A stretch of DNA of 64,000 bases from Phytomonas francai (taxonomy: Eukaryota; Euglenozoa; Kinetoplastea; Trypanosomatida; Trypanosomatidae). The position numbers and the translations under genes were made by a program. Position 1 is the stretch's first letter; each line of letters begins with the position of its first letter. Below are positions 16,716-18,635 of the stretch, piece after piece. The stretch lies in contig MJCC01000007.1 in NCBI GenBank assembly GCA_001766655.1, positions 303,275-367,274 on the forward strand. The letters run 5' to 3'. The notes beneath the pieces are model-generated. The model was not told where the DNA came from and made no database searches. It saw only the letters and a list, made by a program, of their open reading frames with translations.

Positions 16716-18635
16716 ATGCTTGCACGACGTATTTGTGGCAGTGGCCTTATCACAGGCGTCAGCGCACTCGCGCGGCACTCCTCGCAGAAGGTGCAGGGTG
16801 ATGTGATCGGGATTGATCTTGGCACGACGTACAGCTGCGTGGCGGCGATGGATGGCGACAAGGCACGCGTGCTTGAGAACACGGAGGGCTTCCGGACGAC
16901 CCCGTCCGTGGTTGCGTTCAAGGGCAACGAGAAGTTGGTAGGACTCGCGGCTAAGCGGCAGGCGATCACGAACCCGCAGTCGACGTTCTACGCGGTGAAG
17001 CGTCTGATCGGCCGGCGCTTCGACGACGAGCACATCCAGAACGACATCAAGAAGGTGTCGTACAAGATCGTGCGGGCGAACAACGGGGACGCGTGGGTGC
17101 AGGACGGGAACGGGAAGCAGTACTCGCCGTCGCAGATCGGCGCGTTCGTGCTGGAGAAGATGAAGGAGACGGCGGAGAACTTCCTCGGTCACAAGGTGAG
17201 CAACGCGGTGGTGACGTGCCCGGCGTACTTCAACGACGCGCAGCGGCAGGCGACGAAGGACGCGGGGACGATCTCCGGGCTGAACGTGATCCGCGTGGTG
17301 AACGAGCCGACGGCTGCGGCGCTCGCGTACGGGATGGATAAGACGAAGGACACGATGATCGCGGTGTACGACCTCGGCGGCGGCACGTTCGATATCTCGA
17401 TCCTCGAGATCGCCGGTGGCGTGTTCGAGGTGAAGGCGACGAACGGCGACACGCACCTGGGCGGGGAGGACTTCGACCTCATTCTGTCGGACTACATCCT
17501 GAAGGAGTTCCAGTCGACGACCGGGATCGACCTGAGCAAGGAGCGGATGGCGATGCAGCGTATCCGCGAGGCCGCGGAGAAGGCGAAGTGCGAGCTGTCG
17601 TCTGCGATGGAGACGGAGGTGAACCTGCCGTTCATCACGGCGAACCAGGACGGCGCGCAGCACATCCAGATGCACATCAGTCGTAGCAAATTCGATGCGC
17701 TGTCCGAGAAGCTCATCCAGCGGTCGATCGCGCCGTGCAAGCAGTGCATCAAGGACGCCGGGATCGAGATGAAGGAGATCAACGACGTGGTGCTGGTGGG
17801 CGGCATGACTCGTATGCCGAAGGTGATCGATGCCGTGAAGCAGTTCTTCGGGAAGGAGCCGTTCCGCGGCGTGAACCCCGACGAGGCGGTTGCGCTCGGC
17901 GCGGCGACGCTTGGCGGCGTGCTGCGCGGTGATCTCAAAGGATTGATTTTTCTTGATGTTATCCCCCTTTCTCTTGGAACAAGCGTTGTAGGAGATATCT
18001 TTGTGCCCATAATCCCAAAAAACACGACGATCCCGACGAAGAAGACACACATTTTTACGACTGTTGAGGATGCTCAAAGCGCCATTACGTTCCAAATCTT
18101 CCAGGGCGAGCGCGAGATGGCGACGGATAACCAACTGATGGGGCAGTTCGACCTCGTCGGCATCCCACCCGCGCCGCGCGGCGTGCCTCAGGTTGAGGTG
18201 ACGTTCGACATCGACGTGAACAGTATTTGCCACGTGACGGCCAAGGATAAGGCGACGGGCAAGACGCAGAACATCACGATCACGGCGAACGGTGGGCTGT
18301 CGAAGGATCAAATCGAGCAGATGATCTCTGACGCCGAGCAGCACGCGGAGTTCGATCGTGAAAAGCGAAAGCTTGCAGAGGCGCGTAATAAGTCTGAAGA
18401 TATTCTTCGTCTTGCTATAGGCAGCATAGATAGTTGGAAGTATGTCGATAAAAGTGATCGTGATAAGATTCATGCACTAATTACGGAGATCCGGAAGTCA
18501 TTAGCAAATCCTAAATCATCCCTTGAGAATATAAAAACAGGGACTGCTAAGCTCCAGAAGGCGGTGATGGAGTGCGGGCGCACGGAGTACCAGCAAGCGG
18601 CCTCTGCTAAAGCTGCACAAGATGATAAGCGTTAA
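16716..18635 (+). CDS. mitochondrial HSP70 paralog with diverged substrate-binding domain
   Basis: The product is 639 aa. Residues 1-406, covering the presequence and nucleotide-binding domain, differ from copy 1 at only two visible residues (Met to Ala and Met to Thr). From base 17934 the gene becomes a mosaic. The linker and first SBD strands are changed ([18 protein letters not shown] in place of [18 protein letters not shown]), [11 protein letters not shown] is kept, and the next strands diverge. [20 protein letters not shown] and [11 protein letters not shown] are identical, the lid is diverged, and [17 protein letters not shown] is identical again. The poly-Gln tail is absent. Identical blocks are GC-rich and diverged blocks AT-rich. 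It should still be a matrix HSP70 with intact ATPase motifs but altered client binding. From memory, divergent mtHSP70 homologues have been reported in Leishmania. Confidence 0.95.

Follow-up and report, generated by a model that had tools for sequence, protein, structure and literature searches.

A 64-kb stretch of the Phytomonas francai genome (hereafter the window, meaning the whole stretch that was analysed; positions 303275-367274 of its contig, in an assembly of 17.4 Mb and 37 contigs) carries two genes for mitochondrial HSP70 (mtHSP70), referred to here as copy 1 and copy 2. Copy 2 is a mosaic, and copy 1 is the probable donor of its converted tracts. We consider it quite probable that copy 2 is the P. 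francai copy of an ancient second mitochondrial HSP70 of trypanosomatids (type 2), that such genes have been recurrently overwritten by gene conversion from their type-1 partners, and that selection has removed those conversions that entered the client-binding cleft, this judgement applying to the three parts jointly; the selection, and the function of type 2, we infer from the sequences.

The mosaic of copy 2

Copy 1 ends about 7 kb upstream of copy 2 on the same strand, with three further plus-strand open reading frames (ORFs) of at least 150 residues between them. A search of the assembly returned eight matches: copy 1, copy 2 and six others at 50% or less, none of these six being an mtHSP70 gene. 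Copy 2 encodes a full-length Hsp70 domain (PF00012, 827.6 bits against a cut-off of 20.6), scores above the DnaK cut-off (TIGR02350, 836.2 against 822.55), and has the ATPase domain, beta subdomain and helical lid in the order expected of an Hsp70; its predicted fold has a mean predicted local distance difference test (pLDDT) score of 85.7. Its N-terminus is shared exactly with copy 1, and its predicted location is mitochondrial.

The two genes and the blocks of copy 2 are listed here, where GC3 is the G+C content of third codon positions and DnaK numbering is the copy-2 number minus 21, as confirmed by structural alignment.

7462..9435, plus strand: mtHSP70 copy 1, type 1, 657 residues with a Q-rich tail; ORF; PF00012 E 2.4e-263
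16716..18635, plus strand: mtHSP70 copy 2, type 2, 639 residues without the Q-rich tail; ORF; PF00012 E 6.2e-249; mosaic recipient
16716..17933, plus strand: converted tract A, codons 1-406, presequence and ATPase domain; 1215/1218 identical to 7462-8679; GC3 0.90
17934..18020, plus strand: native type-2 patch 1, codons 407-435: linker, strand 1, loop L1,2, strand 2; DnaK 386-414
18021..18044, plus strand: micro-tract, codons 436-443, no difference from copy 1, GC3 1.0, lying between the hairpins of the cleft
18045..18095, plus strand: native type-2 patch 2, codons 444-460: strand 3, loop L3,4, start of strand 4; DnaK 423-439
18096..18323, plus strand: converted tract B, codons 461-536, second half of the beta subdomain, 220/228 identical
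18324..18548, plus strand: native type-2 lid segment, codons 537-611, GC3 0.37
18549..18593, plus strand: converted tract C, codons 612-626, 0/45 differences, GC3 1.0
18594..18635, plus strand: native short tail, without the Q-rich extension

An earlier note on this DNA had reported three substitutions between 16716-17933 and 7462-8679, followed by alternating identical GC-rich and diverged AT-rich blocks, and an ungapped comparison of the two copies, base by base and codon by codon, together with the GC3 of each block, bears this out. All three differences in tract A (3/1218 bases) are non-synonymous (codon 44 ATG/GCG, codon 56 ATG/ACG), and not one of its 391 same-residue codons or 204 four-fold sites has changed. 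The native core, codons 407-460, differs at 69/162 bases and 10/15 four-fold sites, tract B at 8/228 and 2/32, the native lid segment at 115/225 and 10/12, and tract C at 0/45 and 0/6; in the tail, 12/24 bases of codons 627-634 differ. This contrast between blocks at four-fold sites (Fisher p = 2.7e-23) argues against constraint at the protein level as the cause of the mosaic. The lid segment holds a short GC-rich identical stretch near its start, and tract C, which gives a 47-base blastn match at 18549-18595, contains two type-1 diagnostic residues. The differences at 16845-16846 and 16882 give copy 1 Met-44 and Met-56; within a 22-row protein set Met at either position is found in copy 1 only, and of the copy-2 residues Ala-44 is also unique while Thr-56 is the common one.

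The lengths of the identical runs were assessed by shuffling same-residue codons 10000 times, either over the whole gene or only beyond the ATPase domain. With whole-gene shuffling the 391-codon run was never reached (longest shuffled run, 152) and the runs of rank 2 and 3 were unremarkable (p 0.995 and 0.974); with shuffling beyond the ATPase domain the three longest identical runs gave p = 0.0008, 0/10000 and 0.0018. Tract B is more different from copy 1 than tract A is, both in bases (Fisher p = 3.7e-5) and in same-residue codons changed (2/68 vs 0/391, p = 0.02), so that at least two events of different age are likely, with tract B probably the older. The micro-tract stands out from the rest of the core in its GC3 (1.0 vs 0.35, permutation p = 0.0002). 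Along the blocks of copy 2 GC3 runs 0.90, 0.44, 0.86, 0.37, 1.0 and 0.25, tracking the mosaic, and is 0.84-1.0 in the corresponding blocks of copy 1 and 0.43 to 0.97 among 22 ORFs of the window; native copy 2 would accordingly be a gene of low codon bias, the donor's bias having come in with the tracts.

The 5' and 3' flanks of the two copies are unrelated: a self-blastn of the window (E up to 1e-5) gave no match between them outside the coding sequence, and the best flank-to-flank blastn match had E = 0.049. The identity does begin at the ATG, as had been noted, and if conversion is limited to homology, unrelated flanks would place the tract edge there. Unrelated flanks also speak against the opposite history, in which copy 2 would have arisen recently by duplication of copy 1 and then received its C-terminal part from an older type-2 gene. 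The nearly identical ATPase domains would suit such a duplicate; however, the tracts are small and alternating, not a single replacement, and the assembly holds no other mtHSP70 that could have been the donor, so we consider this history very unlikely. An origin of the tracts from a third donor we likewise think unlikely, as there is no further mtHSP70 in the assembly.

We give very little weight to an assembly artefact in which copy-1 reads or consensus ended up in copy 2. An identity of 1215/1218, and gaps in the window at 26118-26122 and 41533-41655, might raise the suspicion, but tract A holds three differences and tract B eight, several switches fall within one open frame, no gap lies near the genes, and a like mosaic is present in Leishmania mexicana, a separate assembly.

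Type 2 across trypanosomatids

Three protein searches, each covering the best 120 of about 8000 scored matches, gave 172 pooled proteins, in a set clustered at 90% identity, which hides further species. A set of 20 diagnostic core sites was painted in 174 aligned rows, with copy 1 and copy 2 among them; two matches of unusual length, P0121 and P0135, were painted only within the 172. Type-2 residues occupy 14-20 of these sites in eight of the 174 rows and 0-3 in the other 166. The eight are copy 2 and genes of L. mexicana (P0015), L. braziliensis (P0002), Lotmaria passim (P0016), Leptomonas pyrrhocoris (P0009), Novymonas esmeraldas (P0134), Angomonas deanei (P0041) and Strigomonas culicis (P0136), so that type 2 is found in six lineages beyond Leishmania: P. 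francai, Leptomonas, Lotmaria, Novymonas, Angomonas and Strigomonas. No Trypanosoma type 2 was seen among the best 120 matches of one search that reached down to bacterial DnaK. In the alignment the Q-rich extension is absent from all eight genes, and copy 2 shows both the short tail and, in the cleft block, grouping with the second-type protein of Leishmania.

Block trees were built on proteins from 8 type-2 and 13 type-1 rows, with Strigomonas P0006 left out. For residues 25-400 copy 1 and copy 2 fall together (100/99), and a clade of the eight type-2 loci is rejected (approximately unbiased test, p-AU 6e-66); this ATPase-domain tree places the pair beside Leishmaniinae and Strigomonadinae, the branch joining those two to the exclusion of the pair having support of only 84/71. 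For residues 405-461, in contrast, all eight type-2 loci form one clade (100/100). These two trees are decisive. In the tree of residues 462-536 copy 2 lies among type 1, and in the lid tree it lies inside a type-2 subset (97/98) on a long branch (1.53) of odd composition; for these two blocks it is base identity and diagnostic residues, not the trees, that carry the case. Copy 2 thus shows silent identity within the tracts, high silent divergence outside them and conflicting block trees (two of four decisive), the marks of a gene-conversion mosaic. The trees conflict in the manner predicted by the earlier note, which had read copy 2 as an older paralog repeatedly converted by copy 1, and that proposal is supported; its expectation that diverged blocks would group with paralogs across species is borne out at 405-461, and its companion, that identical blocks would group by genome, holds in the ATPase domain, the tree of 462-536 not being decisive.

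Proposed recurrent overwriting and the client cleft

A finer painting relied on 53 diagnostic sites, which the genes with the least conversion, those of Leptomonas, Novymonas, Angomonas and Strigomonas, served to define; copy 1 carries the type-2 residue at none of the 53. At least four of the eight type-2 genes are clear mosaics, with differing switch points. Copy 2 is type 1 in the ATPase domain and tracts B and C, and type 2 in most of the core and lid. The L. mexicana gene is type 1 in nearly the whole ATPase domain (the ATPase domains of its two types are 99% identical) and in the lid, while the stretch from the core to where the lid begins is type 2, save for three exceptions. L. braziliensis has this pattern plus type 1 at 468 to 510. 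In Lotmaria type 1 covers the opening part of the ATPase domain and the greater part of the lid. At both diagnostic sites in 612-626 all four mosaics are type 1. Seventeen of the 53 sites are never type 1 in the four mosaics, and 15 of these lie at 411-460; circular shifts give 6.7 such sites on average (p = 0.00045), in a test that was devised after the pattern had been seen and that uses an uneven site grid and related species.

We next turn to what these sites encode. In a comparison of the eight type-2 genes with 12 type-1 genes (P0006 and P0030 left out; the first ~280 residues represented by six of the eight type-2 genes only), 19 positions have no residue common to any type-2 and any type-1 gene. 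Eighteen of them fall among the 56 residues of 405-460, as against one among the 583 elsewhere, which is the last residue, at the end of the alignment; adding P0006 and P0030 to the type-1 set left the count unchanged. Measured against all 166 other rows, 11 of the 18 core positions remain exclusive to type 2; at two of them 1 or 2 rows share a type-2 residue, and at five 4 to 50 rows do. At ten core positions the eight genes have one and the same type-2 residue. The segment that is type 2 in all eight encodes the linker and both hairpins of the client cleft.

For DnaK, passages of PMC8604352 give 12 client-contact positions for sites -1, 0 and +1 and the backbone bonds, a set that excludes the outer two sites. 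At seven of the 12 every one of the eight type-2 genes carries a change (I401T, E402S/A/G, T403V/I, L404V/I, S427T, A429V and V436I), compared with 10/98 other positions of the beta subdomain (p = 0.0003); within 401-439 only, the figures are 7/9 contacts and 10/30 others (p = 0.024). Position 438, which passages of PMC8215388 tie to the stimulation of ATP hydrolysis by substrate, is changed from I to F in 8/8. In the predicted model the native patches of copy 2 form two hairpins, each around a loop; we take the loops to be L1,2 and L3,4 (the naming follows in part passages of PMC8215388). Because the hairpins flank the micro-tract, conversion appears to have come up to the edge of each.

The earlier note had the substrate-binding domain and the lid resisting conversion. 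Of the former only codons 407-460, less the micro-tract, have done so, 18096-18323 being largely converted, and the lid has resisted in copy 2 (537-611), whereas type 1 makes up most of it in L. mexicana, L. braziliensis and Lotmaria. That reading was largely right, and is sharpened here to one in which the client cleft resists; its suggestion that selection maintains a distinct client surface agrees with where the kept residues lie, such selection being inferred.

The core might instead have been kept, with no selection at all, simply because it is too unlike type 1 to recombine. It is indeed among the most diverged blocks, matching the type-1 consensus at 55-62% in the four least converted genes. 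However, the lid is more diverged still in those genes (44-51%), and in L. mexicana (84%), L. braziliensis (84%) and Lotmaria (76%) it nevertheless resembles type 1. Three of the four mosaics thus have a mostly overwritten lid and none has its whole core overwritten, a pattern that speaks against divergence alone as the barrier; in copy 2, moreover, a 24-base patch within the core and a 45-base stretch lying between diverged blocks appear to be converted. A divergence barrier therefore seems to us unlikely, and the overwritten lid set against the kept core favours selection, on few independent cases. It is highly improbable that the core is a fast-evolving, relaxed segment of a degenerating copy; AT-rich codons and the long lid branch (1.53) would be in keeping with this, but ten core residues are the identical type-2 residue in 8/8 genes, the frame is open and the predicted fold is confident. 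A fully relaxed pseudogene we think unlikely given the open frame, the fold and the conserved core.

Several observations weigh against recurrent conversion with a protected cleft. The sample is eight type-2 genes and four clear mosaics, two of them from Leishmania, and two of the eight (P0134 and P0041, both 360 residues) are incomplete, lacking the first ~280 residues. For residues 462-536 a type-2 clade is not rejected (p-AU 0.085), nor is the pairing of copy 1 with copy 2 in the lid (p-AU 0.28). When the circular-shift test is run with three genes p ranges from 0.0008 to 0.035, the latter with L. braziliensis dropped. Within 422-460 copy 2 and Lotmaria each have 3/18 type-1 residues and Leptomonas has 2. 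Type 2 is recognised mainly by its core, so that genes without that core and without other type-2 residues score as type 1. Strigomonas P0006, on a contig of 2204 bases, is type-2-like or private over its first ~161 residues and type 1 thereafter, and may be a type-2 gene with an overwritten core or an assembly chimera. S. culicis P0136 begins the other way round, identical to type 1 as far as residue 69; with both on contigs of 2-3 kb, exchange and chimera are indistinguishable.

Under the explanation that we prefer, recurrent type-1-to-type-2 conversion in an ancient paralog with selection removing cleft conversions, the patches would arise by ectopic gene conversion from the type-1 gene, and the tracts would extend as far as homology allows and carry the donor's GC-rich codons into copy 2. 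Conversions of the cleft would also occur and would then be eliminated, the type-2 cleft serving different or fewer clients by virtue of T for I at DnaK 401, V/I for L at 404, V for A at 429, I for V at 436 and F for I at 438. The ATPase domain would be free to homogenise since both proteins would share a matrix location, an ATPase cycle and co-chaperones.

Setting, known systems and meaning

Directly 3' of copy 2 lies a gene for a J-domain protein (18917-19915, plus strand; PF00226 E 5.8e-12) with, by eye, a hydrophobic stretch in its second half; it is possibly a co-chaperone, possibly there by chance. Antisense to copy 2 is a 589-residue open frame (16704-18473, minus strand), and the same frame is fully open opposite copy 1 too (657 codons), so that it looks like a shadow of GC-rich codons and not a gene. 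Elsewhere in the window, the 333-residue ORF at 14311-15312 (plus strand) has the highest GC3 of the 22 ORFs measured (0.967) and matches no Pfam family at its cut-off, and a 24-base tandem repeat of 6.5 copies (55622-55777, plus strand) lies in the N-terminal part of ORF 55430-58462, which by eye looks like a RecQ-type helicase. A spliced-leader exon pattern gave 0 matches at 0 and at 3 mismatches, a negative of little weight because the search tool passes over the commonest words.

Campos et al. (2008) reportedly described the two distinct mtHSP70s of Leishmania, and from the description we take the L. mexicana and L. braziliensis type-2 proteins to be theirs; both share the ten core residues with copy 2. 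As the earlier note stated, divergent homologues are known in Leishmania: passages of PMC4488524 and PMC5133764 give two mitochondrial types (HSPA9A-D in L. infantum) with stage-differential expression, a conserved N-terminal part and a divergent C-terminal part. PMC4488524, in the passages available, presents the pair as unusual, with a sole mtHSP70 "even in related trypanosomatids", whereas here type 2 occurs in six further lineages and the conserved N-terminus is explained by conversion. Its Table 2 gives L. major mtHSP70 gene numbers 30.2460-2490 and 30.2550, two loci a few gene numbers apart, an arrangement that looks like the spacing of the two copies in the window; for T. brucei the literature passages name only Tb927.6.3740.

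Yeast also has duplicated mtHsp70s, SSC1, SSC3 (ECM10) and SSQ1; according to passages of PMC3879978, "converted" SSC3 orthologs of C. glabrata and V. polyspora cluster with SSC1, and the specialised SSQ1 has changed sites near the cleft. Duplication, conversion between paralogs and a changed cleft in one copy are thus shared, but the duplications are independent and those passages describe no protected-cleft mosaic. The bacterial Fe-S Hsp70 HscA has changed arch and pocket residues and narrowed specificity (PMC8215388, passages of section 12), at the same arch and pocket positions as type 2 but with other residues. By score, copy 2 was rejected as an HscA, falling under all three cut-offs (TIGR01991, 564 vs 708.55; NF003520, 570.5 vs 620; NF002399, 375.6 vs 743) and no higher than copy 1. 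For Leishmania beta-tubulin paralogs, the abstract of PMC1533823 proposes ectopic conversion that homogenises the coding regions and leaves the flanks distinct; there, unlike in copy 2, which keeps a distinct coding segment, the coding regions evolve in concert and regulation differs. The earlier note thought the mosaic might be new, and among the results listed by searches of an open-access library, from which most subscription papers are missing, no type-2 mtHSP70 that combines a mosaic with a protected cleft turned up; within that library, the wider range, the mosaic and the protected cleft are what is added to the known Leishmania pair.

The chances seem to us about even that a second mitochondrial Hsp70 with a client range of its own is retained by many trypanosomatids other than Trypanosoma, one that ~50 linker and cleft residues alone distinguish everywhere, the rest being resettable by conversion from the housekeeping copy. 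If so, the identical N-terminus of the Leishmania pair need not imply recent duplication, and whole-sequence trees could misplace the paralog. Comparison of type 2 across species would then be a natural experiment revealing the residues that selection defends against overwriting, and the protected residues would be a natural map of Hsp70 client choice. The finding points to a little-recognised second mitochondrial chaperone in insect trypanosomatids.
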